From Siniperca chuatsi (lineage: Eukaryota > Chordata > Actinopteri > Centrarchiformes > Sinipercidae): a stretch of DNA of 64,000 bases. Under the pieces are notes generated by a model. It was given only the letters and a program-made list of their open reading frames with translations, made no database searches and was not told where the DNA came from. The DNA lies in NCBI RefSeq assembly GCF_020085105.1, contig NC_058064.1:19383323-19447322 (forward strand), read 5' to 3'. Below, one piece after another: positions 2,561 through 58,560 of the stretch; position 1 is the first letter of the stretch, and the number at the start of each line of letters is the position of its first letter. Made by a program: the position numbers and the translations under genes.

Positions 2561-2569
2561 TGAAATTTC

Positions 2570-2660
2570 TTTTCATCTTCCGGTTTGCAAAGATGGGCGT
2601 TGACGTTCACGCATGCGCTTTCCTCTTGCACTCAGGCCAGTTTGTAGTCCGTGAGTATTT
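2570..2660 (-). promoter_or_regulatory. Candidate promoter (ETS, CRE-like and NRF1-like motifs)
   Basis: Within 45 bases there is an ETS core (CTTCCGG, 2577-2583), a CRE-like TGACGTTCA and an NRF1-type GCATGCGC (2611-2618). Such clusters are usual at housekeeping-type vertebrate promoters. It lies immediately upstream of the inferred minus-strand UTR exon. No TATA box is evident. Function is inferred from motifs only; it could also be bidirectional. Confidence 0.4.
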
Positions 2661-2749
2661 GAGCCATGGCTTTCCTTGCCAGATTTCCAATGCTTTTTCC
2701 CACATTAGTTTCACTTTAACATATTTAGTTATTTAGGATTTCACTATGA

Positions 2750-26400: not shown

Positions 26401-29400
26401 AATCTGTAAACCAGGAGTTAATAAATAGCTCTCATTTTTAAACTAATCCTATGAGTCATGCCTGACAACTTCTGTCATTTAGTGATTTGTCATTTCTTCT
26501 CCAGACTGTCATTGCATGTGGAGTTTCATACGGATTTGACTTCAAGACAAGATATGGCATTGATATTGTTGGCCATATTCCAAAAGGGTAAGACATTTTG
26601 CACAATAGCTAAATCCAATGAATTCCGTATGTTATGTGAACAGCAAAAGCATCAGCGATAATTAAACTTCAAGGCCAAGCACCCACTAGACAATAGGACC
26701 AGTCCCAGACCGATCCCAATACATGATTTGTCTTTTCTGAGTTTCTGGGTCTCTCACTGTCTGTCAGAACACATTAATTCATGGATCATGCCACTCACAG
26801 GGTAAAGATAATGAATTATCTGTAAGGCTACACCCATGGGTATTGGTGTAACATTTGTAGATAGTGTTTTATCAACTCTGCGAGTGGGCAAACACATCTT
26901 CAATGAAGCGTCATTAACAAAACACATGTGCTGTATGCAGACTGGGGTAAAGGCAACTTTTCAGACAATATGGTAATTGTTGTATGAAATCCATAATGCT
27001 CACAACACACTTTGCAATTAACTTGATGACCCATAACCACAATGAAGAATGTTACCTGAAGTAGTATCACGTTAAATATTGTGGAAATATTTCAGCATAA
27101 CAGACTAATATCTGTTCTCAGGTACGAGCCTCCAATGGCCCCAAACCTGCACATCTTCCAGGAGACAACAGTGGAAGCATTTCCCATGGCCATAGTGGGT
27201 TTCGCTGTTGCTTTCTCTGTGGCAAAAGTCTATTCTGTAAAACACGATTACACCATAGATGGAAACCAGGTTTGTAACAATGCTAAGATTTACAACATTA
27301 AAGTAAGAGCAACAGGTTTAATCAGGATTTAGATCACAAGACATGTTTTCTCTCTGACCTGGCCGTAGGAGCTGATAGCTTTTGGTGTCAGCAACATCTT
27401 TGGAGCTTCCTTCAAGTCTTTTGCTGCAAGTACAGCTCTTTCCAGGAGTGCAGTGCAGGAGAGCACAGGCGGCAAGACTCAGGTAAACTGATGGGTTTTT
27501 ATTCCTCAATGAGCTTATTTGCCTTAATCCTAACCTTAATTCTAACACTAGACAAGTTTTAGTCAAATCTGAGGCTAAATACAGTGAGTTTGAGCCAGGT
27601 TGAAGACAGTCGAGGCTGACTCAAGAGAAAGACATAAACCAGTAATGTGTTTTATTGCATTACCAGTGGTAAATGGTAACTAAGAATAGTTCCACATTTT
27701 GGGAAATACGAGTTCAATGAGAAGATTGATACAACTCACATGGTACATATGTAACGTTAGCTAGAACCAGCAGCCAATTAGCATTGGAGATGCAGGTAGG
27801 TGCATTTTGTCAGCTTCGGACAGAGCCAGGCTAGCTGTATTGCACTATTTACACCACTTCATTTGTTTCACAGCTTTGCAGATTAACATTTTACATACAG
27901 AACGTATCATCAGTTTATAAAATACGATACATTTTTGTAAATTAAACTACCCAACAGTTTATAAAGTAGTAACAATTAGCTTTACCACAACAAGCACAAC
28001 ATTAAAATGTTGCTCACACATTAATGCATTAGTAATAATGTTCCAGTAATGTTGGATATAATAGTATTACTTTGAACTGCTGCATACTAAGTACTTATAC
28101 TTTGATACTTTAAGTACATTTTGCTGATACAAATTTTACTTAAATAAGGGTTTGAGAGCAGGACTTTTACTTGTAATGAAGTATTAAGCAGTGGTATTAC
28201 TGATTTTACTTAGTATTACTGAGCTTTCCAAATGCAAAAAGTCGAATCTAATCTATACATGTGAAGTGACTAATGAGTGCATAAAAGTGTGAGGGTGATA
28301 GAATATGCAGGAGTCCACAGGCAAAATCCCTGAAACCAATCATAGCTCTATGTGGAAGAAACGAACATTAATATGATTTCCAATTATTTAAAAATTATTT
28401 CACAGTATAATACCTTAATAAATGTTCTTGAGACCAGAGCACAGACAATTCATTAAGTGAGGGACCAATAAAAATTCTAAACAACACTGACTGGGGGTAT
28501 GATATCCCTTTACTAATAGTAATAAAATAAACAAAATTGAAATAGAAAAGTGAAGCAGTGGCATATCAGATTGATTGGTTTAATGAGACTGAAATTTGCA
28601 TAAGGTAACAGGGTTAGCAATCTGAAAGCCCTTCTTGGTTGGGTTTTTGTTTGTTGTCACGTGGTTCTTTATATCAGGATAGTGGAATAAAACAGACTTT
28701 TATTTTGAGGCATAATAAACTGGGACCAACGTGTTACAGCAAAGGAAACCAATATGTCTTGGACTTTTTGGTTTTTCTGCTTCGGTTTACAGTTGCCATA
28801 TACCTAAACTTCAGATAAATATCTTTGAGACATGTGGGAGCATTCCTCTTTGCTGTAGTTTAACATACGCGTTCTGTCCTTTTCAGATAGCTGGTTTACT
28901 GTCAGCTATCATAGTGATGATCGTCACATTGGCCATTGGATTCCTACTGGATCCACTCCCGAAGGTAAACCTCAGAACTCCGTCAAACTCAAAAGTCTTT
29001 GGGGTCTTGACTGACTGAAATCTTACCTTTGACCCATTATTTGAACAGTCTGTGCTGGGTGCTGTGGTCATTGTAAACCTGAAGGGCATGCTGATGCAGT
29101 TTAGAGACGTCCCGTACCTGTGGAAGAGGGACAAACCAGACTGTGTAAGTTCTCACACACTGAGAGTAGTTATAAAGAAAGTTTTCAAATTTATTATGGT
29201 CATTTTGTGCTACTAAAAAAAAAGATGACATATTGCCCCTTTGAAAAAACTTTTCTGCTTCTTACCATTATCTATGTCCAGGTTGTGTGGTTAGGTACCT
29301 GTATTGCAGCCATCTTACTGGGGCTGGATCTTGGATTGGCTGTAGGCCTTGGTGTGGAGCTGATCAGTGTCGTCCTCAGGGCTCAGTTGTAAGTATCTGG

Positions 29401-32400
29401 CCACCAACTCTTTACTTTGTCTTTATACAAAACACAATACTTTAAACTAGTTTGTTTTTGTCTTAGCTTGTCATTTTCTTTCAGGTCTTGGCAGCATGCA
29501 GTTTTCCTATTGATAAATGGACAGTTTGAACTGTTTCTTAAACTGCTGAAGTCCTTAGTGCTCCAATTTTTAGCCCTGCTAGCAGTGAAGCTCTGGGGAT
29601 TGCAGTGTTGGTCAGTCAGTCCACCACTTTGGCCCAGATTGAAAAATCTCATCAACTATTGGATGGAACAAAATAACTGCAATAAAATTTTGTACAGATG
29701 TTCATGGTTCACAGATGCTATGCTAAAGACTTTTCCTCTGGCGCCACCATGAGGTTCACATTTGAGGTTTTGAGTGAAATTTCTCAACAACTATTGGATG
29801 GCTTGCAATGATATTTGGTACACACATTCATGCCCCCCCCAGAATGAATTGCAATAACTTTGTTCATCCCTTAACTTTTCATTATGTTACTTTGTGTTAA
29901 GTGCCTGTTAGCAAATGTTAGCATGCTAACATGCTAAACTAAGAGGGTGAACATAGTAAATATTACCTGCTAAACATCCGCCTGTTAACATTACCATTGT
30001 GAGCTTGTTAGCATGCCAGAGTTAGCTCAAAGCACCACTGTGCCCAAGTATAACCTCCCAGAGCCGCTAGCATGGCTATAGACTCTTATACCAGATTTTA
30101 AAAAGTTTGCAGGTTGTTTTAGAAGTATTTATTTCTTTTCTTTTTTTTTCCAGCCCTCGCTGCAGTGTGCTGGCCAACATCAAAGGAACTGATATCTACA
30201 AAGATAGAAAGGACTATATTAATGTAAGTTGGTGCATGTGTTCTATCAGGTGTCTTCTGTAACTTATGGTAAAGGAATAGTTTGACATTTTGGGAAAGAC
30301 ACTTATTTGCGAGAGTGACATGAGAATATCTATATCTCTCTCATACCTGTCTGTTAGATATAAGGCTACAGCCAGTTAGCTTAGCTTCGCATAAAACAAC
30401 AGGGAGAAACAGCTAGCCTCCCTCTGTCCAAAGATAACAAAATCCACTTACCAGCACCTCTAAAGCTTAATAATAAACACGTTATTGTTTGTTTAGCCCG
30501 TAATTGTCCGGCATATAACCCCCTGTAAAACTGCAAATTGTAATTAAACGTATTTTTAAAAATGAGACATGTCAGATCAGTTAATACCCCTGTTTCTAGT
30601 CTTTGTGCAAAGCTAAGCTAACCAACTGCTGGCTCCAGCTACATATTTAATGGACAAATATAAGAGTGGTATCAGTCTTGTCATCTAACTCTCCTTAAAA
30701 GCATTTATTGTATTTTTGACCAGTGGTTCCAAAACTAGGATCAAGGGAGCCAGAGAGCCAGAGACCAGAGTCCTTGAGGATTTTCCATGTGCTCCTGACA
30801 GTATCAGGATTTGTTTGATTTTATTTGATTCATTTGGAATGAGCAGGAGGAAGGATGTTATAAAAATGTCTGTGTTGAAAGTGTAATTTCACCTGCAGTT
30901 AGAGAACCTGTTCCAAAATGTGCTTATAATTCCCTTAAAGCAGAGCTTGTCTTTACAGACCTTATCTGAACCAGAAAGGTGATAAGAATCATCCCTGCTC
31001 CCTTGTTCCTGTTTCATGTTTGCATCTTACTTTCAAGAGACTAGTTGCACTTTACCATGATTTTGGCTATAATTTGGGTATAAAGGAATGACTCTCTCCA
31101 GATATATGAGCCAGAGGGAGTGAAGATCTTCAGGATACCATCACCAATCTTCTTTGCCAACATTGAGTTCTTCAGGAACAAGCTGGTGGAAGCTGTAAGT
31201 ACAACAGTGGCAACAGACTGTGTTGTGTTTTTTTTTTTATTGTTGAGGTCACATCCTCCTAGAAAAAAAATGTCATTTATATTCAAAACCCTCAACTTAG
31301 CTCATTTAGTTTGCAACACAGCATCTCATTCTGTGGCAAATGTCATAAAAAACAACCAAATCGACTTTGAAAGGCCATGTTGTAAACAGACAGATTGGAA
31401 AATTTAAGTTTACAAATCTTATCTTGGGGTGCACGGTGGCAGAGCGGCTAAAGCTCCTGCCTCCCAATGGGTTAAGGAGATCGTGGGTTCGTGGACCAGA
31501 CCAACATCACACAATCTCTCTGGACAATCTCCAAAGACATGCATGTGTAGGTTAATTGATAACTCTAAATTGCCCGTATTGAATGAATGTGTGAATGGTT
31601 GTCTGTCTGTGTCTGTGTCTGTGTTAGCCCTGCGACGAGTTGGCCACTGTCCAGGGTGTACCCTGCCTAAGGCCCAGAGTCACTGGGATAGGCTCCAGTC
31701 ACCCGCGACCCCTAACGGGACCAAGCGGTAGAAAATGATTCCGTCTCTAAAACTTGTGACATACTTCACACTAATGTCTTCTCAGGTTGGATTTAACCCG
31801 TTGAGAGTGTTGCGAAAGAGAAATAAAGCACTGAGGATGATCCGGAAACTTCTAAAGAAGGGAGACCTGCAGTGGACATCAGTAAGTACTGACTTTGACC
31901 TTATTCAGTGATAACTGAACACACTTTTACTCTGGTAGCACTTTCACAATGCCATAAATGATAAATGGACTGCATTTATATAGCGCCACTCTAGTCTTCC
32001 AACCACTCAAAGCGCTTTACACTACATGTCAACATTCACCCATTCATACACTGATGTGTATCTCGCCCAACGACACTTTAACATGCAGGCTGGGGGGGGA
32101 GCCGGGAATCAAACCGCCAGTCTTTTGGTTAGTGGACAACACGCTCTACCTCTAAGCCTCAGCCACCCCGTAAAAGTCTCAGTAAACATTACTATCACTT
32201 GGATACCATTATTTAAAACAAGTAAATTCTGGAAATTAATATATTGATGCTGAATCTTTAGTTAAACAAATCTGAAGTGTGATGGCCTTTGCTCAGCAAA
32301 CGGTACAAGGTTCGCCTCCACTTATCTCAGATGCAAGTAACAGTGTGAACATGATAAGACCAGGTCTGTGATGTGTTGAGCAGATCAGGGTTTGTTGTGT

Positions 32401-35400
32401 TTGGTTTACAACATGTCTGCAACATTTACAACGGGCAGACTATAATTGTAACTTTTGTTACTTTTGGAGTGTAAAAGCAGAGGCATTAAACCATATACAC
32501 TAAGTCAGCTGTTGTACCCTTGATATTTCCACTTTCAAAGTACAATTATGTACCAAAGGTGACCAATAAGTACCTTTAAACAATTAATTATTAGAAAATA
32601 TTGAGTGCTACGATTCCCCCTGCACTGCAAACCTTGTTGCTCCCACACTTGGCTTAGGGAGATTGTAGACAGATGAAGACAGTGTAGACACACCCACCAG
32701 TAGTGCTTAGTATTGCTACAAGGACACTGATCGCTCACCAGCTTCCCATCAGTCATAAGCCAGGTTTCCATCCAAATGTAAACGCAAATTTTGGCCAAAT
32801 TTCCACAAAATCTGCAAAAGAAAATGCAGATTAATGTGTGTTTCCATCCACTACTGTTATGTGAATTTTAGGAGTTGGGTGCGTCGAGATAACAGTTGGT
32901 GGTGCTAATTCTCCAGTCAGGTGCCATTAAACCATTGCAGAAGAAGAGGACACAATAAGATGATGTGATTAAAAGAGCTCCAGTCAAACCTCAAACTAAG
33001 GCAATGTAGAAAACGTGATGGAAATATGGCATTTGTGTTTGTTTCATGTATTCATTTGAGGAAGCTTACAGTCTCTGCATTGCTCCACAGATATCTGAGG
33101 GTTTTCCTCTCTCCAGTGGAGCAGCTTCAGTGGACATTTTAAGTCCATATACGTCGTGATTTATTGTCTGTTTCCATGGTTTCCAACCTGTTTCCAGTGC
33201 GCTTTGTCGCATTTTGTTTTTATTGATTGACTTATTACAAGAACAAAGTAGATCAAGCTCATTGAATGTAGAAGGTTGCAATGCTGCACAGTGCCAGGCA
33301 GCAAAGTGGCTTGTCCTCCTTGTTTGCATGAGTTTCTTCCAGAAACTTTGGTTTCTGTCCACAAAGTCAGGGCAGCGAAGTTCAGGTTGATCATTTGAAA
33401 GTACAGCGTTTTGCCATTGAGTCCATATCATGTTTTCTTCCTGTGTATCTAAATGTTGGTCTTGCATTGCAGATGAGGAAAACTAGCATTTTTTTTCAAA
33501 ATTGTTTTTAATTTAATTTGTTTTCATAAGATCTCAGATTCACAGTTCACATTTGCTTTGTGAACTTTCAGAAAACAATCTTAAAGATTCTGTAGTATAA
33601 ATTTAGTTCTGCCTGCAGTACGTGTGTTACATGTAACTTTGTATATACTAGAACGTGCTGCAGCTCTGTGTGAACCAAAGAGAAGTGAGAACATGTATGA
33701 ACAGCATTTTGCCATTACAGAAAGGCTTCCTGAATACCTCATGTGGACCCATCAAGGAGTCAGAGGATGAGAGCAACATGGAGGAGCTGGACCTGCCGAC
33801 TGACTTCAAGGACCTTCCTGCCCGGATCGACTGGAACGCCGAGCTTCCCGCCAACATCATTGTTCCCAGAGTGGACATCCACAGCCTGATCCTGGACTTT
33901 GCTGCGGTCTCCTTCCTGGACATCTCTGCTCTGAAGGGACTCAAAACGGTGAGTTGTTCATTCACAGCAGCAACCGAAGCACTTATTTTACTAAAGCTGC
34001 TTTTCATTAGTCATCTTTAATTTTTTTTTTTGTAGGCGCTGAAAGAGCTGATCCGGGTTGAAGTTGAGGTCTACATTGTGGATTGTGATTGTAAGTATAA
34101 ACCTGAAGTAAGGCCCAGCTCACTCAGACAGACCTGTGACAAGTGCGTCACCATCTGTGAAGCTAAAGCTCTCCTAAGCTCGACCAAATGTGTTAATAAT
34201 GCTGCTTTTTGCATATCATGACATATTTGTAACATCTGGTTTTGTTATGAAGGACTTCTTAAAAGGAAAAGGAAAAACCGAACTGACTCTGTGAAAGCAA
34301 AACGCATCATTTAATATTACAGAAGTCAGCAGCTACCTTGAGCACTTTGCTCACTGAAACATGTCTTAGCGTTTACATTTTAACCAGTCATTCAGTGTGT
34401 TGGTGTAGCCTTTATATTTGACCATTGTTTAGCAAGTTCAGGTCTTTAAAGCCATTACTTTTGTCCATGTCACTTCCAACAGACACAATAAAAAGCATTC
34501 CATTGTTTTTCACTGTACTAGCAAAATGGGAAAAAAGTATGTCCATGCATTTCTAAAGTGTACTAAGTCTGCAGAAGAGGCACTACATTGCCTAAATTGG
34601 GAAATCAGAATTTGGACTTGGCAAAATAGCTTATTCTTTTTCAAATATACCAGTGCTTTCTTTTTTTACTATGCCCTCAGTTCAGCAACTTGTGCATACA
34701 CTTAATTATTGACACTCACTTTAAGTCCGCTTTTTTCACTGTTAACTTTATGGGCTCCGTACAACAGAAATGCATGGCCTCAAAGCCTTTCTGCCCCATT
34801 GTCACACATACTGTGTTTTCTGTCACAATGGGCATTTGCTGATTTATTTCTTATACTGCCCACAAATACATGTTTTACATACCCACCCTATACATCTTTA
34901 TTTCATTTTGTGTTCATTTCTTTGAGTAAATTCCCATTTGACAGAAATGATAAGCATTTCAGCTGACTGGTTTTCCAATAGATAATAGCCCACTTAGTGG
35001 CAATCTGTATTTCAAGGAAAACCACATGCTGACATGCGTGACAGATACAATCCTTAGTGTCATAAATCATTTCTCTAAATCCTTTATAGACATCTGAATT
35101 AACTTGTACTTTGACTGACTTCGTCTCCGCGCCTGCAGCTTACATCCTGGAGAAACTGCATGACTGTTGCTTCTTTGATGATGAAGTCCAGCCGTCAATG
35201 TTCTTCCTGACGCTGCATGACGCCATGCTGCACATCCTCGAGAAACATCCAGAGACTACAGAAAAGAAATCTGACTATGACAGGGTAAAGAAGACAAGGC
35301 TTACAGTTTGTATTCAGCGAAACATAGCATGACCCAATATGTGGACGTATACGGTCTATTAGCGCTGCGAATGGGTACAGAATACTTAACTCTTCGTGTC

Positions 35401-38333: not shown

Positions 38334-41300
38334 ATGGTGACTTTGAGGAAACAATATGCGGTGTCGAGACCTGTGTACTCTGAGGACAGCTTTGCTGAAG
38401 ATCATGAGAAAATCTACAGGCTGCGCAAAACCACCCAGGACCATGTAAAAGAGTATCTGACGTAAGTGAACCCCAGTTTTTAGAGATCAGGATCACGGTC
38501 TTTGATTTGACTTAATAACTTGCACTACTGATTTGACATCTTCTGCAAAATAAGCGTCTAATTATGATAGAAGGTTTGATGAAATTGTGTCTAAGGAAAG
38601 TTCATTAAAGTTGCAAACTTTAGTTTATCAGGGTTTTTTTTCCTGTTAAATCCAGCTGTGATTCAAAACGTGCCAAGAATGCAGTGCTCGCTCTTCTGCC
38701 CATCACTGGCTGGATGAGGATCTACAGAGTTAGAGAGTGGCTGCTGGGTGATGTGGTGTCTGGGATCAGCACTGGACTGGTGGCCATTATGCAAGGTGAG
38801 AAGGAGTGAGCCAGAGTCTGGAGCTGCAGAGTCCCGTCATTGTTGGTGCATTCAAAGCAACCAAAACCAAACCAAACCAAACTTTAGGGTTCCATAAGAC
38901 ACTGCACAGCAACTGAAATTACTGATGCATTTGAGATATTTGGCTGAAGATAAGATACAACTTGATTGATCCCACACAGTGAAATGAAGTACAAGAACAG
39001 ATGCATAGCATGGACAAGTGCGCTTAATGAACTTGTATATTATTGTACATTAGGCCCTATGAGCATCTAAATACAAAATGAAGCATAAAAAGGCTAAAGA
39101 AAATTGTTAAATACAATATAAACTATCCATAAGTAACAACTACAAACTGTACTGAGACACACACATTGGTAAGTGAAAAAAGGGTTTCACAGAAAAACAT
39201 GGTTATATTCCTCAAAGTAAAATGGTGAAAAAGGATTGTTTTCTATTGGTATCTGGTGTCATTTGGCACTAGACTGTATCAGAAACTTTTTTATCTTTCC
39301 ATTTAAGTTCACGCCATAAACTGTCAACATTTAAACTTTGGACTATTTTTAGCAATGCTAGCATCGTGGCTCTAGGGATGGCAATGCCGATTGGTCAGTC
39401 TGTCGCTGAAATGTCTTAACAACTATGGACTGACATGAAAATTGGTACAGACACTGCACCCTGAGAATGAATTGGTGAACTTTGGTGAACTCTTAAGTCT
39501 GTAGGTCAAAATTTCAATTTGTTCAGTGCTTTGGTTTATGACGAAATACCTGCAAAACTAATGACATTCCATTATACCTGCTAACATCAGCATTATTAGC
39601 ATTGTCAAGTGAGCATGTTAGCATGCTGACGTAGCATTTAGCTAAGTACGGCCTCACAGAGCTGCTAGCATGGCTGTAGACTCTTAGTCTTGTTTGGGTC
39701 AAATGTAAATGTCTGCACCACGTTATCTACCAGAGGTTTCAAGCTAATTTTAATACTGACATTCAAAAACAAATATCGGCCAGCTTACCCACAGAATTAG
39801 CTCCTTTAGTAACTTAATAGCCATTGTCTAAAGCTTGTCCTCCTTATCTGTACTAATTTACATGGCAGAAAAATAACTGGCAATTAATGGAAGCTTTTTG
39901 TTTGTTTAATTTGCTTTTCCAGAGATATTTGACATGAAAGATATTCATTATTGTTTAAATCTTCGTTCCGTGTTTGTTGTTTTGCTGTGGTCTCCCTCAG
40001 GACTGGCCTTCTCTCTGCTGGCCTCGCTGCCGCCCAGCTACGGCCTCTACACAGCTTTCTTCCCCATGCTAACATACTTCTTCCTCGGTACTTCAAGACA
40101 CATATCTGTAGGTATGTCATGCAATGCTGAGTCACTATAAAATATTTATATATCATTTATATAAATTCAACTTTATCAAATACCATCTGATGTTTTTTTT
40201 TTAATTGATTGTGCTTTGGGACAAAACTCTTTATTTATCATAATTTCTCCCTATTTTTCTGTACAAACTGTCCCCTAGTAGTAAAACAGGTTTTCTGTCA
40301 TCAAGCATAAACATATCACTTAAAGAGGCCTGTTTGGAAAAGTTATGGATGTTATCATTTAGACACAAGGAGACAAGATTGGATGTGATATGGCTTAACA
40401 GTGTCTTCCCTCCGCCCCTCCTTTCCACCCACCTTCATGCAGGCTCCTTCCCAGTCCTGAGCCTGATGGTGGGAGCTGTGGTGACCCGCCTGGTCCCAGA
40501 TGATGGACCGCCGGCCAACATCACCGGCTTTGACGGCCTGACCCAGGACCAGCAGAGAGTCCTGGTGGCCTCCTCTGTGACCTTCCTCATGGGGATTTTC
40601 CAGGTAGATTTGTCTCCATACCATACCAGTGATTCTACATGTTCTAGGAAGGGTTTTCAAACCAAGCTTATTTTCTTTTCATTTTTCTGTCCCATGCAGC
40701 TTGCCATGGGTGTTTTACAGGTGGGCTTTATTGTTGTGTACCTGTCTGACACTCTGGTGTCCGGCTTCACCACAGCAGCTGCTGTCCACATCCTGGTGTC
40801 CCAGCTCAAATTTGTGTTAGGGTTGGACATTCCAGGCATCAGTGGTCCACTCTCTATCATATATGTAAGTCCAGCATGTATCTGACAGTTATATTATTAT
40901 TGTCTATGCAATTTTATATATTTGGAACTAGCTGAGATAGACTCCCAATGTATTCATCATTCAGGCAGTAGGAGAATAAGATAGACCAGGGAAAGAGGAC
41001 ATAAACGATAGCTTTAAACCCAACCAATGAGCTGGCTCCAAAGCAGTGGCCTAAGTATTTGTGAGACAATTGGCAGTGGTGGTACCAAAATTTATGTTCT
41101 CGAGTGGTTGCATTCAGGACAACAGGAATTCATAGTAAAGCAGTACTGGATATGCATGTTTATGTGTCAAAGTTTTTAATTTTATGGCCTTTCTGGGATT
41201 TCTGTCGCATCTTCATGTGGTTTGCCTTGGAATTTTGCCTTATTGGCGTGTGACATAAAAATAAATAATACTTTTCATTTTTAATCATGCTCAAAGTGTT

Positions 41301-44300
41301 GAGTTTAGTGCGTTTGCTTCTTTTGCACAGACCCTGGAGAAGATCTTTGTCCAGATCACCTCCACCAACATCTGTGACCTGGTGATGTCCATAGTGATCA
41401 TGGTGGTGGTGTTCATTGTGAAGGAGCTGAATGACAGATACAGAGCCAAGCTGCCTGTTCCCATCCCCATAGAGGTTATCATGGTGAGAGAAACCTTAAA
41501 GGGAGATACTCCTCCTGCACAATGTACCTTATTAACTACAAATCGTGTATACTTTACATTACTACCATTTAACACCATCATCGTGTGAAAAACCTCATTG
41601 GCTGGGGCATTCAAGGAAGCTCTGGAGTTTGAGAGTCGTCAAGCATTGTATTCACAAACTATGTTTATTCATGTCATTTGACACGCATTGTTGCTGTTCA
41701 TCAGCCAAACCTCAACTCTTAGATTTTAGAAGATGAACACATCAACAAAGCAGTGAGCCAGCGTGAACGATTCCAGGACCCTAAAACTGATGCAGCCAAA
41801 TGGCATTCAGCTATCATTAATTTTATCATTCACACCTGCGCTTTTCCTACTGTCACATGTCACAATGTCCTCCATTACGGTCAGTTTCCATGTGCTGTAA
41901 CAATAAAGCAACTTTGGCAATAAACAAAACAGTAACTCATTGTTAGCTGAAATGAATGACCTACCTCAAGCATGTTTGAGGTCTCTGCAAGTTGATTTCA
42001 AACCATAATGAATGGAAATCAATAGGTACCAATGCTTAGAACTCATTCTGATTTTTTTTCCATTCACACAGACTATCATAGCTTGCGGGGTGTCCTATGG
42101 CTTCAACTTCAAGGAGAGATACGATGTTGACGTTGTTGGAAAAATGGTTAGTGGGTAAGTTTCAAGTTCTCCACGTATACCAGTAGATTGCAGGTCAAAA
42201 TCAAGCTGGCCGCTGTTTCATCAGGTAATTCAGATCCAGTGGTGAAAGAAATCCCACTGAGCCATTACGTCATTGTACACAACATCGCCTCTGTGCTTTA
42301 ACTCTTATATAGACAAGGATTTATTGGCTACGTATAGCCTGGTTTTAGACCATATTTTAAAAACATCATTACATGTTTTAAAAATGCATAAAAGCCTGTA
42401 AATATTTAACATAGTACTGTTTACAGTATAACTGTTCATTTTTTGTTATATACACAGATTCTGTTTACTCATATCCCACAATGCAACATTCGGTTGTTAC
42501 ATTAATACTGGGAGTCTACTAAACTTTCCCTTTTCAACCTTGAATGACCTTAATCTAAACCAGACGTACAATAGACAACTATTAAACGTCTTTTCAACGT
42601 CAAATTGCTCAGTGGGACGCAAGCACCATGTATGTAAAAGTATTAGATTTGAAATCCTAATAAAATAAAATAAGTTATAATACATAAGTGTTACCAGCAA
42701 AATGTTTTTGAAGTATTAAAAGTAAGAGCACTTGTTCTGCAGAGAAGTGAGTGATATAATAGATGACATTATTAGATTGTTAATACCGATGCATCACTGT
42801 CTAAGCAGTATTGTACGGTTGACAAATTTGTATTCATTTTTTTGACTTTTCTCTAATCTTTGTTGTTTTTGTGATATATTGAATAATTTACCTGAAACTG
42901 TTTAAATGAAAGCATATGAACATTTTGAGGGAACATGTCTCTTTGGTAGAACTGCTGACAACTCATAGAGATCTGAAACATGAGAGGGGGCCCCAACTAG
43001 ACACTGCTTTTTTGTAAGGAGTCAGGAAGCTAAAAAGGTTGGAAACCACTGGTTTAATGCAGAACAATGCATTGCATTTTAAAAGCTTATCATATGTTTT
43101 TATGTACAATCTTAATATGAAAAGAAACCAGTAACAACAGCTGTCAAAAATTCAATATTCCCCGCTGAACTGCAGTTGAGTAGAAGTAAAAGGTATCAGA
43201 AAATGGAAATACTCAAGTAAAGTGCAAGTACCTTAAAATTGTACTTAAGTACAGTACTTGAAATGTACTTAGCTACTTTCCACCACTGTTCAGATCCTTT
43301 AAATTCACAATTAATCACAATCATCTTTCAGGTATGAGACTCCCATTGCGCCCAATATGGAAGTCTTCAAGGAGAGTGCTGTGGAGGCCTTTCCTGTAGC
43401 CATAGTGGGGTTTGCTGTTGCCTTCTCTGTGGCCAAAGTCTACTCTATCAAACATGATTACACCATTGATGGGAACCAGGTGAGTTACATATATTAACAC
43501 TGCCTATCTTTGTCTGGCTCTGACAGAGGAAAAAGAGTTAATTAGTTACTGATACTAAGCGAGAACGAGAATAAGACTCCTCATAATTTTGGTCATGAAG
43601 ATATAAAGATACATTGAACATTGCTTTTATTTCAAGGTTGGATGTAAACTTTCATGTGCTGTAAAAAAAAAAAAAAAAAAAAAAGCAGGTCAAACAGAAT
43701 CATTCAAGTCAAAACAAAGGTTCATCGCCAGAGAGGTGACTCAGTTTTTCATTGTTCCATCCCAGGAGCTCATTGCATTTGGGGTTAGCAACATATTTGG
43801 GGCAAGCTTCAGGGCGTTTGCAGCCAGCACGGCACTCTCCAGGACGGCTGTGCAGGAGAGCTCGGGAGGCAAAACGCAGGTCAGAAAAGAAATCTCACCA
43901 TTTACAACATCTGTTTCCTGGGTCACGAACTTTTACTAGGTCACTACTATTTTTGTCTCCAAAAAGATTTATTGTAATGTCGTTTTACAATCTGATTTAT
44001 ATCCCATTCTTTTCCTTCATTGGCATGTTAAAATGAAACATTAACTCTTTTACAAATGCAGATTGCAGGACTGATCTCAGCCATGATGGCGATGATTGTA
44101 ACCGTGGCACTTGGCTTCCTGCTGGAGCCGCTTCCCAGGGTGAGCCTCACCTCTGTAATGTAACAGCTTATGCCAATAGGTTGGACATTTTTGTTTTGTT
44201 ATGTTTTATGTTCCTTATATGGAGAGAGAGTTTGACATTTTTCAGTAATATTGATTCATATATGGGGGAAAGCTCAGTTGTGAGTGTATATCTATAAGTC

Positions 44301-45610
44301 TAAAAGTGTGTTTTTTTTCTTACTTCACTCCAGTCTGTCCTGGGTGCCTTGGTCATTGTCAATCTGAAGGGCATGCTGATGCAGTTCAGAGAAATCCCCT
44401 ACTTGTGGAGGAAGGATAAACCAGAATGTGTAAGTGTTCTTACATTTCACTGTCAAAACTAAGACGAACTGTATTTACTTGGTTATTAACATGGCCCAGT
44501 CTATTCTCTTTCAGTGTTTGACCTCAGGTGTTTGTCTGCAGGTGGTGTGGGTGGGAACATGTCTGGGTGCCATCCTGCTGGGACTGGATCTTGGTCTGGC
44601 GGTGGGCTTAGGGGTGGAGCTGCTCACTGTCGTCTTCAGGACTCAATTGTAATAACACAGTTTATGACATCTGATAGTAGTTTCTTAATATGCAAACTGA
44701 CTGCAGAGAGAAAATCATGGATTTACTGTAGTGGATGAAAAACCTTATCAGCACCCAAGTCATTTTGCAACATGAAGCAGTACAATGTATTGTCCCTATA
44801 AAGGGGCACTCCAGGGATTTAATATTGCATTTCCATAAAGTCAGGGATCTACAAGTCAACTTTTAGTCCCTAGTATGGGTCAAGCTACAAAAACACTGGT
44901 CCTATATATTTTACGTAACGCAACTCAATACCATCATTCAAACACACCTCCAGTTTGTAACGCTGGCTTTCTGTTCAAAATTTGATGTCTGATGACATAA
45001 TCAGGGTTCTTTTTTCAAACTTTGGAAAGCCCCCTCCAGAGCCACAGTAGTTGTTATACAACTGTTTTCACAGGCTTTCACAGTAGTACTCCTTGTGACG
45101 GGTAAAATAGGTTTAAGTTGATATTTTTATCCAAAATGTGTACGATGAAAAGCGTTAGAAGTGTGTTGTCTTGCTCAGGGACACTGGACACTTCCAATGA
45201 CAGTAAGTGTTCCGAGCCAGGTGGACACCCTGCTCATTCAAAGCTCCTCTAGACAAACGATGTGTTCCAAGCACTATAGTGCACTATATTTACTATCTGC
45301 TGTTTTATTTGGTTGTCTGAATTGACACTTTCAACTGACTGTCAGATGAAAATGATGCTCTATATAGTGCCCTCAGTTTCCACAATGGAACAAAAACAGT
45401 TGTGTCGATGGCATGTACCCTCCTTTCTGCACTTTATAGATGCCAAAACTATAATCCTGCCACTCTACATACATCTGCCACTGATGACAATTATGATGAT
45501 TAGCAAGTGTCTAAGTTCTCAATTTACTGCTCACTATGGAGTAAACTACTGAGTGTTTATCACAAAGGCATAGGTTTGGTTTCAGAAGTGTGGGGACTCA
45601 ATAAAGAAAA

Positions 45611-45689
<79 letters not shown>

Positions 45690-48600
45690 TATAATTACCA
45701 AATTAGGATGACATTGGTTATTGTTCTTTCCATAAGCAACAAAAAAAGAAATGCTGTCAACCTGTGTATTAGAAAATGTATTAATCATCAAGGAGGGAGA
45801 ATAGAAATAATAAATGTATTATTGAAGCACTGACCCTAATTAAAACCAAATTTTTTCTTTGATAGATACCTAATACTTAAAGTACAAAGAACACTGCCCT
45901 TTACTGCCTTATCTTTGACTGATGCTCAATAAAAGTCTTTAACTAATTAATTCATTCACTGTAGAAAATAAATACTAAATTTGTATTTATTTTTATCCAA
46001 AAACATGAGTAGTGTCTTCAGGTATTGCTTTCAGGATGCATAGTAGCCCAACAACCTTCACCAATTTGGTACAGGGACAGAAATAGAATTCCACCAGCCT
46101 TCCTCCCACAGTCTGCTGTGCTCTGCACCAATATTTATGTTTAACCCTCTTTATGTCCTTCTAGCCCTCGCTGTTCTGTCTTGGCTAACATCCCAGGGAC
46201 CGACCTCTACAGAGATCACAAAGATTACCTGCATGTAAGTGTGTTAAATGAAATACAATAAACCTAGCAGTGTTGAATGGTTTCGGTTCATGTCGTGGTA
46301 TCTTTCTGAATCACGTTTGTTTCATCACGATGCTTCCCTTCTCAGATATTCAGACCAAACGGAGTAAAAATCTTCAGGATACCCTCGCCTATCTTCTTCG
46401 CCAATATCGAGTTCTTCAGGGACAAACTTGTAGAAGCTGTATGCACGACACATCGACTCTCCCCTCTGCTTCACTTTACTTTTCTCAGAAAATAAATGCG
46501 TATGAACATAATGCCAGCACTTGGTTGTTCCAGGTTGGGTTTAACCCTCTGAGGGTTTTGAGGAAGAGGAACAAGGCTCTCAGGAAAATCGAGAAACTGT
46601 TGCAGAAAAAGGATGATGACATTACAGAGGTAAGACCTCAAATACACTAGAAACGACTGCACCAGTGAGTGTTCTTCCAAAAAGCTTTAAGTCTCCTTTC
46701 TCACATCTGTCAAACAGAAAGGCTTGAGGGACTTATTCTGCCAGACGACTGATGAGTCTTACATGAACAAGGAGGAGGTGGATCTGCCCACTGACCTCAA
46801 AGACCTTCCTTTCCAAATGGACTGGAACGCCGAGCTTCCCGCTAACATCAGTGTTCCCAGAGTGGACCTCCACAGCCTGATCCTGGACTTCTCTGCCGTC
46901 TCCTTCCTGGACATCTCTGCTCTGAAGGGACTCAAAACGGTACAAAGTCAGTCAAGGTGCTCCCACATACTGGAGTTCAATAAATGCTAGTAGTAGTGAA
47001 GCTGAGAAAGTGACGGTCACTGGCAGGATGTCACAGTAAAAGGTGTCACCTCCACCTTTTCGTCTAACCAGTCCACTGTGGCTTTTCACCTTTCCTCCCT
47101 GACATTATTTAAAACTGTAAAAGTTGCTGTTTAGACCAAGAAGTTGGCTGTCACTCGGTATCCTCTATGACAAATAAGACTGGGGCTGCAACTGACGATT
47201 ATTTTCATTATCAATTAATCTACAGATTATGTTCTCAATTAATCGCTTTGATTCACATTTTAATCGCGTTAATCGCGTTCTCCCAAAGCCCACAATGCCA
47301 TGTTCAAAATGCCCGACCAACAGTCCAAAACCCAAAGGTATTCCATTTACCATCACAGAAGAGTACGAAAACCAGCAAATATTCCCAATCAAAAAGCTAG
47401 AACCAGTGAATTTGTGGCATTTTTGCTCAAAAAACAATTATTCAGTTATAAAAATTGTTGGCAATTCATTTTCTTTCAGTCAGCTTGTTTCAGCTCTAAA
47501 TAAGAACCGCAGTTCCTGGTGACGTTTTACAATAAATGCCTTCCAGTGGTTCAACATCTGAAAGCTTTTACACACATATAAGTACAATCAACTTCTGTGG
47601 ACGAACTTTGTTTTCTCGTTTTGATGATATCCGTTGGTGCAACGCCGTCTCTGCTGTGGCACTTTCTGTTTAAGACATTTCCCAATAACCACTAACCACT
47701 ATCCAATAGTGTCGACAAGTCTGTAACATTCCTTGGATTTTTTGGTTGATGCAGTTTGGGTGTATAGGCAGAAGTTCTTTTGTTTATTCCAAATAAATCA
47801 AAATTGGAAGAATAAAACATATTGCTTCCTCTGCACCAGGTGTTTCTTGGGAAAGACCTTCCAGACAGTGTTCAGAACACCAAAAGAAAAAAGAAATGGA
47901 AGATTCAATAAAAGTAGGAATGTGTTGAATACTACACTGCCATAATAACTTAAAATAGAAAATAGATAATCAGTGTCTACCTTTTCACAAAGACCTTAAC
48001 ATAGACTTGCCATGAGACAACCCCCCCCCTCCCCCCGCCACACAAATGAATGTGAGAATCCACCACATAAAATCACAAGTAGGTGGCAATCTGCAATAAA
48101 GTAGAGCCAATGTACATATCATTCCTCAGCTGTATTATTATGCAATTCTATACTTTATATACTTCTCACAAATGTGGGATTTACATTATAATACATTTCT
48201 CACATAAAAACTCACTGCATTCTCCACAGGCGCTCAAAGAGTTCATCCATGTTGATGTGGATGTTTACATTGCTTCTTGCGATGGTGAGTTTCATTAGTA
48301 TTGAGCACAACATCCTACAATCAGTGATGACACGTGTCCACTGAGCACCTGAGGTGATTACTGCCTGTGAAAACCCATAACATGCTCTCATGTGTTGACA
48401 GCGCACATCCTGGAGAAACTACACAGCTGTATGTTCTTCGATGAGGAGATTCTGACCTCCATGTTCTTCCCGACCCTTCATGACGCAATGCTGCATGTGC
48501 TTGAAAAACACAAGAAGGACAAAAGTAAAGGCTGGGTGGTAAGTACAACTATTGATATGTCATTTTTTTCTGTATGGATAGTTAGTATTCTTAACATGAC

Positions 48601-50735: not shown

Positions 50736-51044
50736 GAGACATAGTTAGCGTCTTTGAATGTACAGTACATATGCGTGTAATCAGCTGACATATATACAGA
50801 AATATTTACCATACGCTATTAAAAAAAAGGGACATTCCTGCTCTTCTCCAAGTCTACTGTATGTTCAGTGGGAAGTTCAATTACACTTAACTAAAATGTG
50901 CAGCACATACACATTTGCTTCGGGGCAATTTTATCAAAATGAAAGTCCTACATCCTGTAACCCTGAGGTTTACTATCACATTATTCACACAAGTAGCATG
51001 GAACAGAATGACACAGACTGTTGCCCATTCATTCAGTTGGCAGT

Positions 51045-54000
51045 TTACTGATAATAAGGCCGATAGCGGCCCTGATCTGGGTGGTGCGGTCCAGGCATCT
51101 GGCCCTGAGGAGGAGGACCCTGCATTCGTGGAGGTGGGGGCCCTCTCGGAGCAGGCCACATCCCAGGACTGAGCCCTCCTGGCTGGCTGAACGGGGGACT
51201 GAGGGTGCCCTGGTCTTCAGAGAACTGCTGCATGGAGTTGGGATTGTAATGATGAGGTGGGGGCATTGACAGGGGGGCCACTGTGTTGTGGTGGAGGTCC
51301 TGGGGGCGGGTGGTTCATATAGGGGGGCATCTGGCCCATGATGTGCCCTGGTGGTGGAGTGATTGGTGGGGGAGCTGTGGACATGGGGGGAGGAGGGGCC
51401 TGGTTATACACCATGTGTGGGGTCCCAGAGGCCTGGGGAGGATGCTGCATGGGGTGGCTGATCGGAGGAGGTGGGGGAGGTGGGGGGCCAAAGTGCTGCT
51501 GCGGTGGTGCCATCATGTGGTGAGAGTGGGACACTACAGATGGCTGGCCAGGATAGTCCCCGGGGTGGTGGTGGGGTGGTTGAGCAGGGCCTGGCCCACC
51601 AGAGTGGGGCTCCCGAGAGGAAGAGGAGTCATCTTGGATGGGCACGGTGATGAGATTGCTGTGTTTACGGGTTGTTACCGTGGCAATGCGGAATGTCTCG
51701 GGACCAAGAGCGGAGGGCGGGGGCGGGGCTTCGTGAGCTGTAGGTGGGGGTGGCTGACTGTAGGGGTCATGACTGCTGTGCTGGAGCGGGTTGGGGAGGT
51801 GAACGTGGTTCTTGGGTAAGTGAGGTGGAGGCACGCGGAACCGCTCAGGGACCTCAGATGTAGGGGGCAGGTGCACGGGCTCCTGTCGGCCAGTGGAAGA
51901 CTTGGCTGCCCTCATGTGGCGGTGGTTGACATGGGCCTGCAGATCACGCTGGGACAGGTAGGTGCGCTTGCATCCCGGCACAACACTGCACATGTACAGG
52001 GAACCACGCTGGCACTGCTCGATGCGCTGCACTGGGTCTGTGCAGTTGTACAAGGTGAGGCTGAACACACAGGGGACAAAAGTTCAGTGACAAAGCAGTA
52101 ATAAAACACATCTGAGCTGCTTTACAAAATGCTACATACCCCTTTAGTCAAAATACTGCTTCGGGTTCAGTAAATATTTAAAAAACACCACTCAGAATCT
52201 AGGATGTTAAAACTGAGAGGAATTGCAATATCCACCACATCAAGACTACACATTTAAAATGTCTCCAGAAGAGCTCACCCAGGGCACATCTTTTCCCCTT
52301 TCTTCTCGTGAAGCAAAGCACAATCGTAGCAGAAAACATGTTTGCAGGGGATCTGAGGAGTTAGAGGGCAAGAGTTACACATGAACATTTCTCTGCGACT
52401 GCCTGCAGAGAGAGCTCAGTTCAACAAAGTACATACCATCCGCCCATATAGCTGGATAGGAAGACCACATTTATCACAAAAGTGAATTGGTACTTCATCC
52501 CTTTCTCCAATCAAATGTAACTGTTGGAAAAAAACAAAAAAAAAACAAAGCTCAAAATCACAGGTAACTACCATTAAAACACACTCAAATACAGTTACTA
52601 GGATATCATTAGCACTGAGAATGTGTCTACTTTTTTGTTTGCTCATTCTTTGAGATTGGATCTGACAATTCCCCACACAGGAAAAATAGGAAGCTAATTA
52701 TTTAAACCAGTCTGACACGGTCATTGATATCCGTCTGAAAATGCTGTATGGGCTGTTGAGTCGTTTCACTCTGCACAGGTGATGTACCTTATAGTCCCAA
52801 AACAGTTGCTGGGGGAATCTCCTCTGACTTGCAAACACATCACCAGCTTTAGCTCCACAATCACGCCTCTCTTCTTGCTTGAAGCCAAAGTTATCTGTAA
52901 CACAAAAGAGACAAGTATTAATAATGCAGTGCAGAAAAACAAAGACAGCCCTAAAACCCAGATAAGTGGTGATTTAGCAGTCTAAGTGAATAGCTACAAC
53001 AAAAATTAATTGAGCATGAAAAAAATTCTCTGTATGCCAATCTGACACTGTAAATTAAATGTAAAATATAATCAAAACCAAAATTGAAATAAAATATTTG
53101 TACTTGTATTTGTGTGGTGAGAGCTAGACTACAAGAGGGCAAAAACATGTCGATTTCAAGAAAGCCTTTGACTGGATCAATGGAGATCTTCTGGAGTGCA
53201 AGTGCTTGCTCTGGTATAGATGGTAAATTTTACAATGCTATCGAAACCTTGTACAAAGCCCCAGTTGCATGTTTACAGTTAAATAAACTTCAGGACTGGC
53301 TGGTGTCCTACTCCATCTGGGGTGAAGCAGGGAGATGTGCCCTCCCCAACTTTTTTTGCCCTTTTTGTTTTCTTGGGGTGCATAAATATACAGCTAAGCA
53401 GGCTATTGAAGGTGACATGGGATAGGAACCGCCTGGTCCAGTTGCTAGAGGAAAGGCTAACCAAAAAATGTTTTAACTGGGACAGAGCACGCAGTTACCC
53501 TTGGTTAAGAGAGGTGTCTGCAATATTTAGTGTAATATAAATATAGTAAAAAAAACTACTAAAGATCCATAAGGAACAATGGACGGATGAGATTTGGAAT
53601 AAGCCAAAGCTCAGAAACTATGTTCAAATCCAAGAGGATTACTACACTGAGCCTTATATACAATTCAATTTCCCTGTGTACTCAGAACTGGTACCTTGCC
53701 TCTGGCAACTGAGGAGGCAGATATAAAAGGTATTCCTGAAGAGCAGCGTTTATGCGTTTTTGTGTGATCTTAGTGTTGCTGAGGATTAATTTCATTTTGT
53801 ATTCCACTGCCCCATGTACCGCGACCTGAGGAATCATTTGTATGAAAAAAATGCAGTTGAGGAACCCTGATTTGTTTTGGTTGTCAGAAGGTAATATGTT
53901 GAGTTGGCTCTTTAATGAAGAGGTTTTTGCTTTAGCAAGATTTATAGACAATGCATGGAAACTAAGACAGAGAACACTATATGCATCATAATATCTTATT

Positions 54001-55067: not shown

Positions 55068-58000
55068 TATTTAAATCTTTAATCTCTTAGCTCTCAACAG
55101 CTATTTTCATTTTGTCTCCCCTATCCTATGGCCTGTAAATGACATTTGAAATAGGTGTAACCAGCTTTTTTGCTGTGTTGTCAACACAGAAAAAGCTAAA
55201 CTTACAACATGTCTTCTTTGGGATGTAGCCAAAAAACTATTTAAGAACAAAATCAAAACTATAGTGAAAATTACTCTTCAATATTTCATCTTTCAGTATG
55301 TGTTGTCATTTTGTCTGTATATCTGGTGAGCTGTTGGCATTTGAATTTTCCAAAATTTCTGGTCCAGCCAGCTGGTTGAGAACAGAACAGTTTGCAGGTT
55401 CAATATCAATGTTCTCAGGATAGTAAATGGGTCAAGTTATTGTTTATTTACAAATAAATAATAACTTTCATTGATTTTCAAATGTTAATCACATTTAGGC
55501 TAGTAGTTTGAAAACAGAGACATCCGTCATAACTTACTGACGCGCAATCATTAGCCTATAATTTAACCAAATTAAACAAGATGTCAACATTCTGCAATGT
55601 CTACTACTAACGTAGGCCTATGCTCTTTGAGATGACTGTATATAATATACATACAATCACACATATATGATATTTAAATATGGGTATTAATTATCTGAAT
55701 TATGGAGCTGATTCATCAGGTGAGCTCAAAATTAGGGAGGAAAATGGTTCAAAGGTCAAAAGGGAGAAAATCCCCTTTAAAACACAGTCAGGTGGGCTTA
55801 AAGGGAACATCAGCGAATTTGAATTTTGGTTAAACATTAAAAACAACTATATGAAATAAATCTATATATGGGGCACTAACATAACATGAAAAGTATAAAT
55901 TGATCATGCAGAGAAGTAAGTAGCTATACTCATTTACATCCACCCCAGACAGTGTGACTGGTTTGCTAGCGTCCCCTTTAAGCCCACCAGGTAAAATGTT
56001 GATTAAAAAATAAATAAAGATAAACATACACATTTATTGTCTATTTAACAGTATAATAAATAAACTCCATACAAAAATATAAACTATACATGCTTGTCAT
56101 GCTTTATGTCATTGCAATGAACCATACTATGCAGCTCTGTATTGATGCAGCATGTGGTCTGTTTGCTGGCATCCTAGAACTCATATTTTGATTTCAAAAG
56201 AAACAATATTTCTAATTCTAGTACTATTCTAACATATATCTTATTTAAAAGCACTAACCACTTAAATTTAGATAACAATTGAGTACTTATCAAAAAAACA
56301 GGAGTAGAAATATGCAAAACAATGTTATCTTCTGAGGGTACCAAAATCACCAAAGTTATTTTGGTGTGCCTGCTGGGATCAGCAGGCACATGTCACACAT
56401 GTGCTTCGATAACGCCATATTGACAAATCTGATTGGCTTACAATCAAAAGTGTCATTATGTAACAAGCAGCTTCATTGGAAGAAACATCACAGAAAAAGT
56501 GATGTACTTTTAATTTAACTCAGAAGTTGCAAGTGGGCTTAAATGGTACGTGGGCTTAATAGGGACGTTTACCCTATTTCAGCACTGTGCTCGTTTTTAC
56601 TGCACTACGTATAACAACTGAAGAGAGTATTTAATTGTGTATGAGCCCCTGTAGATCATTTGAGTTGCAGTCTAATATAGATTGTGGTCACAATGAGTAA
56701 TTAATTGGCACCATCTGGTGGTGCAAAGGTAAACTGCATGATGTCGCCACAGTTTTCGATTCTAAAAAAATGCTAAAATCAGTTATTACTAAAACTTTAC
56801 TCCCAATTAATATTTTGTTTTACAAATTACACATTATTCCAATCCTGGTCCTCGAGACCCCCAGTTAAGAGAATCCCACTTAAAACAAGGACTACTAAAA
56901 CGTTCTTTATTGCATAAACTGCTAGTACATCAGACACAAACAAAATTCTGTAATTTTGCAAAAGTTAAATCTTAAAAACTTTATGATGACATATGGCAGA
57001 ACAGAAAAACTGCATTGGCAAAGCGGAAAGGAGGTCAAACTTTTGGCCCTCACAACAACACTGACTAAAAGACACCAACAACACCACCTTAGCTACTGCC
57101 TCCGATATAACATCCAAGATTAATCAGTGCCTCGGACAGGTCACAACAAAAAAACACAAGCTTCGACCAACAGTTTGTTGTTTTGTAATCCCCATTTAGC
57201 TATTATGACCTTTGTCACATGACACCTGATAAAGCTCAATTCTAAAGTTTAAGCAGACAATAAGACCAAAAAACAAAAAAGTTATTTAAAAAATAAAATA
57301 GGACATCATACACACTATATATTTTTGCTACCTGCATGAAACAACCGTAAACTTTCAATTTGCACACTGTCTCAGTCCCTCTAACAATGCTGTTTTTAAG
57401 GTAACATCCTTAAAAGAAAAAGAGGCATGGTCTACTGCAGAATGCGCCTACCGTCTTCTCCAGCCTCACTTTTGGATGGCCTGCTGCTGGGTCTCTGGAT
57501 GCGGGGCTGAGGTTTGCTCCTTATGGGCTGCTTGGATATGAGCTTGATGGGGATTCGCCTGCGAACATCTGGGCCACCCAAAATCCCAGAACCATCGCTT
57601 CCTTGAAGATCATTATCTGCTGGGGAAAAAGGTAGTGCAAAAAAAAAAAAAAAACAACTGACTGATGACACTTTTGAGAGTCTTATAGTGCAGGAACCTC
57701 TAAATAATTTCAAATGAATATCCTCCGGTTTCAGGTAAAATGCTCGAAGTCAGGATGTGCAAATGCACTGTGATGGGGCGTGTGATATTGGCCCCTGCCT
57801 GTCCACAGGTTTTTTTTAATATTACATTGCAGATTAACAATCCCTTGTTGAGTTGGGAATGCTACTGACGGCACACGTTTTGGAGAAAATCCTCACCGCC
57901 ACAGCCCCGACGGTTGGGGTAGAGCAAGAATGCTACATTCAAAGTTACTAATGTGTGATAATGTCTTTTAACTTTGGGTAACCAGCTAGATTAACGATTG

Positions 58001-58560
58001 AAAATAATCTATTATGACCGTATCGGTCTGGCTTTAGGACTGTAATATAAATAGTTAAGGACTCCGCAAGTATCTTTCTGAAGACATGCGATTAGTTCTG
58101 TCAGCGCTTACAATATCTTAGCTAGCATCATGCTAACGTTGGTCAGATAGCATTCTCAATCGCAGCTAGCGGTTGCGCCTACTTACAGAGACTGTACTAA
58201 CATGTGGAAAATGTAATGTTCCCCATTTCATATTGTAACTGTGTAAACTCGACTACAACGTTGTATGTGCTCTTATAGATTCATTTAGAACTCAACGTTA
58301 ACTTTTGGTGAACAAAAGTGTTCTAGCGTTACTCCATCGCTAGCCTGTTTTTAGCTAACGTTAGCCTGGACCAGACTAGTTTTAACTGCTCTGGAAGATA
58401 ACGAGATGCCGTAGCAAACCCGACTGCAGAGAGGGTGATATGTAGTTGTCTGAAGAGCTGGTACAACAACAACTATGACTGTGTAGTGAGAAATAAATCA
58501 CATAAAAGAAGTTTGTAAACGTCGGCCCTACTGGGCATTTTGCTTACCGCTTTGGTCCAT
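51045..58560 (-). CDS. cbll1: E3 ubiquitin ligase Hakai (Cbl proto-oncogene like 1), with disrupted last exon
   Basis: RING-type E3 ligase known for E-cadherin ubiquitination and for the m6A writer complex. Coding exons on the minus strand: 58548-58560 (MDQS), 57452-57616, 52788-52894, 52437-52520, 52279-52352, and 51045-52045 (or to 52060). The N-terminal [13 protein letters not shown], the RING cysteines C110/C113, C126, H128, C131, C134, C146, C149, the zinc-finger region [15 protein letters not shown], and the long Pro/His-rich tail ending RYRPYYQ all match human CBLL1. Expected length about 480 aa (human 491). Two oddities: the base before the last exon is A where AG is needed, and the final ~70 residues are in another frame. 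Either assembly error or decay could explain these. Tail-to-tail with slc26a3 copy b. The intron of 52895-57451 is repeat-filled. Confidence 0.9.
51254..51280 (-). other. cbll1: Frame disruption in the cbll1 last exon
   Basis: On the minus strand the upstream frame reads ...[14 protein letters not shown] and runs to a stop at 51217. The conserved C-terminus [21 protein letters not shown] lies in a second frame. Two C homopolymers on the coding strand (plus-strand G5 at 51259-51263 and G6 at 51272-51277) are the likely site: one extra C restores or breaks the frame. Removing one base gives a length divisible by three. Confidence 0.75.
53110..53960 (+). pseudogene. LINE reverse transcriptase fragment inside cbll1 intron 2
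   Basis: Plus-strand frames read [19 protein letters not shown] (the RT palm motif with the first catalytic Asp). After a shift comes [19 protein letters not shown] (the G-V-x-Q-G-D-x-x-S-P-x-x-F-x-x-F motif). Further down, [19 protein letters not shown] resembles the C-terminal region of fish L1-type LINEs. Frame shifts and a missing YADD segment show it is dead and internally deleted. Confidence 0.75.
54048..54538. mobile_element. MITE with GGTTTCCACCAA-type inverted ends
   Basis: Left ccgggtttccaccaaa and right cttggtggaaatgcggg are inverted repeats. The interior includes gaccaatcagtggtctgcag and gtaccattcacaac and lacks a transposase. Open frames here mirror each other on both strands and are not genes. 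No clean target duplication was found. Confidence 0.65.
55010..55065. repeat. (TA)n microsatellite, about 56 bp
   Basis: A pure TA dinucleotide run inside cbll1 intron 2. Confidence 0.95.
55791..55988. repeat. Short foldback: 15-bp perfect inverted repeat around about 170 bp
   Basis: Left ggtgggcttaaaggg and right ccctttaagcccacc are exact reverse complements. Related words (tgggcttaatgggtacc at 54960, gtgggcttaaatggtacgtg at 56533) occur nearby, suggesting a wider foldback or nested element between about 54.95 and 56.6 kb. Confidence 0.6.
56600..57440. other. Part of cbll1 intron 2 without recognised content
   Basis: AT-rich DNA between the foldback-like tract and cbll1 exon 2. No repeats or frames of note. 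Confidence 0.5.
57617..58547. other. Intron 1 of cbll1
   Basis: Donor gtaag at 58547 on the minus strand. It ends in a tandem acceptor (cagcag) at 57617-57622. It has several AACGTT and TAACGTTA words at 58130-58365. No repeat was recognised. Confidence 0.6.

Follow-up and report, generated by a model that had tools for sequence, protein, structure and literature searches.

The cbll1 locus and its neighbourhood

The window, the whole 64,000-nucleotide stretch of Siniperca chuatsi DNA that was analysed, carries on its minus strand cbll1, the gene of Hakai, a protein of ubiquitination and RNA methylation, read here as six coding exons (Table 1). Four of its introns have GT-AG ends; the fifth, between exons 5 and 6, is the subject of this analysis. 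The joined exons contain no nonsense codon ahead of a frame break in exon 6, and no further frame break. A 501-base DNA query running from exon 5 to exon 6 was searched against the whole genome of the species (718.8 Mb in 65 contigs) and returned a single match, the window's own locus. The apparent single-copy status of cbll1 rests on this one near-identity DNA search. At exon 2 the CAGCAG tandem acceptor (57617-57625, minus strand) would yield isoforms one residue apart, and human CBLL1 presumably has isoforms that differ by one residue as well.

Two tandem slc26-like transporter genes on the plus strand (21737-35266 and 38657-48529) adjoin cbll1 and are convergent with it. Their single-exon Pfam matches fall under the cut-offs (Sulfate_transp, 20.2 against 23.2; STAS, 18.1 against 22.6). 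The neighbourhood of human CBLL1, as we take it to be, includes SLC26A3. At 1811-3112 on the minus strand lies an intronless frame of 434 codons that encodes a PHAX RNA-binding domain (111.5 bits to PF10258). As human PHAX contains introns, the frame here may be a retrocopy in which the reading frame has been kept. A reverse transcriptase fragment (PF00078, 33.4 bits) at 5350-5583 on the minus strand is probably part of a decayed LINE-like element.

Table 1. Positions of the cbll1 exons and of the sites discussed, in window coordinates
Feature	Positions	Strand	Remarks
cbll1 exon 1, coding part	58548..58560	-	ATG at 58560
cbll1 exon 2	57452..57619	-	starts at CAGCAG tandem acceptor
cbll1 exon 3	52788..52894	-	
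cbll1 exon 4	52437..52520	-	carries first RING Cys pair
cbll1 exon 5	52279..52352	-	MCP-GG at end; seventh RING ligand
cbll1 intron 5, most likely excised form	52061..52278	-	GTGAGC...TTCAG, 218 nt
AG acceptor, most likely used	52061..52062	-	TTCAG; score 10.1; first AG in 49 nt
Extra 15 nt	52046..52060	-	52060 completes GGC (Gly) with exon 5 GG
AA in place of the AG needed for a C-x2-C exon start	52046..52047	-	precedes 52045
cbll1 exon 6	51045..52060	-	to homologous stop 51047-51045
C5 run, homologous frame broken	51259..51263	-	surroundings 51246-51270; frame open on both sides

The junction between exons 5 and 6

On the minus strand exon 5 ends in ATG TGC CCT GG and is followed by the donor GTGAGC, while the conserved C-T-D-P continuation (C TGC ACA GAC) begins at 52045. 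The original prediction held that exon 5 ends at M-C-P-G with C-T-D-P resuming from 52045, that the two bases before this point are AA so that no canonical acceptor exists there, and that an in-frame AG stands 15 bases upstream at 52062-52061. All of this is borne out on the minus strand. An exon 6 that starts at 52060 is 15 nt longer, keeps the frame and meets no stop in the five added codons, and positions 52059-52045 encode L-T-L-Y-N. For the sequence as given, the predicted change of the last RING ligand pair from C-x2-C to C-x7-C by LTLYN is also correct, the insert appearing as a gap in the alignment to the Hakai chains 3VK6 and 2MQ1.

The 15 nt contain 10 pyrimidines, a composition that fits a former intron and would look like an intron end. 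A search of the window for a local duplication that could be their source gave no further stretch closer than three mismatches. Other donors for exon 5 were considered as well; the nearest GT lies in GGGTGAGC, and the phase is thereby fixed. Three AGs further downstream (52038, 52032 and 52027) would shift the frame, at offsets of -8, -14 and -19, and score weakly (1.8, -3.4 and 0.9).

Strength of the upstream acceptor

Acceptors were scored with a matrix built from 31 sites in the window, 27 from the two slc26-like genes (placed by eye) and the four other acceptors of cbll1. The slc26-like genes have 34 exons, and the seven for which the AG could not be placed were left out of the matrix. The AG at 52062-52061 scores 10.1 bits and is beaten by only 6-7 of the 31 (leave-one-out range -2.9 to 18.2). 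The AA site at 52047-52046 scores 0.2, or 2.6 with the AG columns ignored, a value below which 4/31 real acceptors fall on in-sample scores. An in-frame AG at some offset is not rare as such. A score of at least 10.1 is rare: the two strands of the window together have 8,073 AGs, real acceptors among them, and only 66 reach it. Branch-point-like TNA motifs lie 24, 28, 39 and 42 nt ahead of an exon starting at 52060.

In the scanning model, as outlined in PMC1431707, splicing takes the first AG well beyond the branch point, and an AG newly arisen upstream can add residues to the protein; the exceptions given there are AGs near the branch point or near each other. The AG at 52061, the first in 49 nt, is the one whose use this model predicts. 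The acceptors of the window do skip AGs, 45 of them within 45 nt upstream of the 31 scored sites. In four of the 31 the skipped AG is 14-16 nt upstream; one of these AGs is strong (13.0) and three are weak (-1.1 to -6.4), the weak ones all standing 16 nt upstream of their acceptors. The strong one is a CAG in the second slc26-like gene (44526-44541, plus strand), apparently skipped although it lies 14 nt before the frame-correct exon start at 44542. This apparent skip and the listed exceptions to scanning mean that first-AG use is not absolute and that a strong upstream AG need not win.

Folding places a CUGAAC/GUUCAG hairpin over the upstream AG, with G52061 paired at 0.97-0.98 and A52062 at 0.10-0.99 across four folded stretches. 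The hairpin was considered as a means of hiding this AG and set aside as not unusual: the two bases of this AG are paired at 0.94 and 0.95, and 8 of the 31 real acceptors show pairing of 0.94 or above at both. The arrangement recalls in-frame tandem or shifted 3' splice sites (PMC1431707, section 9), where an AG a short in-frame distance upstream likewise adds whole codons. A tandem acceptor has two usable AGs. In cbll1 there is an AG at 52062-52061 and the downstream partner at 52047-52046 is AA, so the sequence as given offers no second acceptor.

The Hakai RING and zinc finger

In the alignment to the PDB chains 3VK6 and 2MQ1, which we take to be mouse Hakai, the five residues LTLYN stand opposite a gap, between the final pair of RING cysteines. 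Without the insert, 78/89 residues of the RING/zinc-finger region are identical to 3VK6, which comprises the RING and the phosphotyrosine-binding (HYB) domain. All eight RING Cys/His align identically, and the other ligands of the RING and zinc finger are all kept in this alignment, taking as zinc ligands those aligned Cys/His that we presume to act as such in Hakai. The cbll1 product differs from 3VK6 in two respects. If spliced at 52061, it has C-x7-C in place of the C-x2-C of 3VK6, with five more residues between the last RING ligands, and its frame is shifted in the proline-rich C-terminus, a region outside the PDB chains.

The Pfam domain zf_Hakai (PF18408), which follows the RING, scores 73.1 bits with the insert and 73.3 without it (cut-off 26). 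PF00097 scores 18.7 bits with LTLYN and 21.4 without (cut-off 21), and PF13923 scores 20.6 and 22.1, under its cut-off of 27 both ways. With the insert present, the PF13923 and PF00097 matches end short of the last Cys.

The HYB domain is described as a zinc-coordinated dimer whose zinc-coordinating residues are completely conserved in the animal and plant sequences found by search (PMC3507883). In a fly Hakai mutant, replacement of all eight RING ligands abolishes dimerization and leaves the protein a poor binder of its m6A partners, unable to rescue lethality; the catalytic activity of Hakai seems dispensable in the m6A machinery (PMC8213727). That mutant is a heavier change than a five-residue insert. 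If a RING-breaking insert had been in place for long, constraint around it should have slackened, and the region shows no sign of this (78/89). The insert would therefore have to be a sequence error, or else recent, tolerated or limited to some transcripts; that it breaks the RING and is both old and fixed is unlikely. Searches for relatives in viral and prokaryotic contig collections gave 3 and 64 pattern matches, of which none was confirmed, as expected for such collections. Six short Hakai peptides had no match in literature text. The LTLYN insert is not mentioned among the matches listed for Hakai/zebrafish and cbll1/teleost/splicing literature, which does not prove its absence from print.

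A frame break in exon 6

Exon 6 carries a second lesion, overlooked in the original prediction, that bears directly on the options of error and decay raised there. The continuous proline-rich C-terminal frame expected of a Hakai orthologue is interrupted at 51263-51259. Past the C5 run the unshifted frame reaches a stop at 51219-51217, giving a protein of 429 codons including the insert, and the homologous frame reads ...RYRPYYQ and continues to its own stop. By arithmetic the break costs the last ~70 homologous residues. The downstream frame presumably matches the human CBLL1 C-terminus, which would mean that it was under selection until recently or that the break is not real. A 43-nt mini-intron (GTCAATGCC...CCATGCAG) that would save the frame was rejected, since 43 nt falls below the size of vertebrate introns and its excision would take out homologous sequence.

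If the insert is accepted as genuine, the break at 51263-51259 would most likely come from an assembly indel in the homopolymer or from an allele of recent origin. As a second lesion in exon 6 it raises the chance that the stretch is mis-sequenced or decaying. Nearby coding sequence served as a control. There were 0 frame breaks in 17 slc26-like exon pairs (4,560 aligned bases, both copies) and in the 434-codon phax frame, where aligned blocks may hide breaks at their edges and include some intron edge, and where the phax frame was noticed for its length. One stop at the 5' edge of block 43306-43485 was taken as intronic. With ~5.9 kb compared, the count of 0 breaks sets only a loose limit on the error rate.

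Interpretation of intron 5

Conventional splicing at 52061 with a genuine LTLYN insert is the reading we favour, and we place it just on the probable side. On the sequence as given, ordinary U2-type splicing would excise intron 5 up to the TTCAG that ends at 52061. Exon 6 would be 15 nt longer than an exon giving C-x2-C, and in the protein LTLYN would separate the seventh zinc ligand of the RING from the eighth. The AA at 52047-52046 would then be no splice site at all. It could be the decayed remnant of an old acceptor after a 15-nt upstream slide or part of an in-frame insertion, two histories that the sequence cannot separate. The bases, their reading frame, the score of the acceptor and the gap in the alignment to 3VK6 are all read directly; we infer that the animal mainly uses the junction at 52061 and that the insert is probably genuine and either recent or tolerated. 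The original prediction offered three possibilities, namely a base error or polymorphism, a non-canonical site, or an altered ligase. The choice was fair, but the prediction assumed that the old acceptor had to stand at 52046. A slid acceptor or a 15-nt insertion calls for no unusual splicing, the TTCAG at 52061 being itself a strong ordinary acceptor (10.1).

A sequence error or rare allele is a serious possibility, though well short of probable. The true or usual base would give AG at 52047-52046 and a normal C-x2-C Hakai from there, the upstream CAG being skipped or used as a minor tandem acceptor, and the frame break, too, would be a consensus error or a rare variant. In favour of it, the gene is intact and conserved elsewhere and has two independent defects within a single exon, and the break falls at a C5 run, homopolymer runs being a usual place of consensus indels. 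The intron-end-like 15 nt, with their 10/15 pyrimidines, and the 4/31 scored acceptors that skip an AG at this distance point the same way. Yet the change at AA would have to be an A/G substitution, which, if the assembly was built from long reads, is not the usual consensus error. The nearby coding blocks, as small and partly biased controls, are without a frame break, and splicing would still need to pass over the stronger AG upstream. For this last reason a C at plus position 52046, restoring AG, is not the clean refutation that the original prediction saw in it. The upstream AG would stay, leaving C-x2-C splicing unproven, although the change could suffice, an AG of 13.0 being skipped elsewhere. 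Early decay is unlikely. It would make this a cbll1 copy losing its function by way of its lost acceptor, its RING insert and its shifted C-terminus, perhaps with another copy working elsewhere. Such a course is consistent with two lesions, both within exon 6, and with a protein cut to 429 codons and lacking ~70 homologous residues. It is at odds with the lack of any earlier nonsense codon or other frame break, with GT-AG ends at 4/5 introns, with the 78/89 residues identical to 3VK6, and with the 501-base near-identity query that finds only this locus in the genome.

That the AA itself is used, with or without editing, is on the two counts together very unlikely. AA acceptors make up a small part of the remainder of introns that are not GT-AG. 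Direct splicing of an unedited GT-AA intron at 52046 is a negligible prospect. Some human GT-AA introns are listed without sign of editing (PMC4176328). Against this, an average of 98.3% of the introns annotated in animals are GT-AG, non-canonical sites being often regarded as artefacts (PMC7072748), and a strong AG stands 15 nt upstream.

Scarcely more credible is A-to-I editing, in which ADAR would convert AA to AI, read as AG, so that edited transcripts would encode C-x2-C and unedited ones C-x7-C. Edited human GT-AA introns are tabulated for ADARB1, NRK, HOOK3 and COG8 (PMC4176328, Table 2), and edited GT-AA introns also appear in PMC2694175 and PMC7072748. As at the self-edited GT-AA acceptor of ADAR2, the AA of cbll1 stands where an AG would give a meaningful exon. 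In one of four folded stretches (52150-51950) both A's are paired at ~0.94-0.95, but their pairing is 0.29 to 0.75 in the other three, so that the value depends on which stretch is folded and spans 0.29 to 0.95. The folding energy is like that of shuffled sequence (z -0.12 for 293 nt and 200 shuffles; +0.69 for 801 nt and 20 shuffles), so a duplex around the AA would have no excess stability. No long partner was found for it either. Of the complementary partners of 52085-52010 sought within 54000-50500, the ten best are ungapped over 12-21 positions and every one stops at 52061, before reaching the AA, and the sole inverted repeat reported in 51000-53000 does not cover the AA. Unlike the ADAR2 site, cbll1 has a strong ordinary AG just upstream, and no stable long duplex was found there. 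Local pairing of AA is conceivable, and nothing apart from the AA itself speaks positively for editing. A two-state Hakai is equally hard to credit. In it the unedited form would have the LTLYN-stretched RING (C-x7-C), in which zinc binding, dimerization or contact with the E2 would suffer, and editing would open the downstream acceptor and restore C-x2-C. If it were true, an adenosine deaminase would set the activity of an m6A writer subunit, joining two RNA modifications.

Implications

If the insert is an error, the locus is a caution for automatic annotation, which would record a RING-altered Hakai for the species. If instead the insert is real and present in the main product, the species would have a naturally altered last zinc knuckle in the Hakai RING. 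Such a protein would allow a test of whether the vertebrate m6A writer complex runs with a RING-altered Hakai. It would also bear on the fly data, in which the RING mutant fails and catalysis is seemingly dispensable (PMC8213727).
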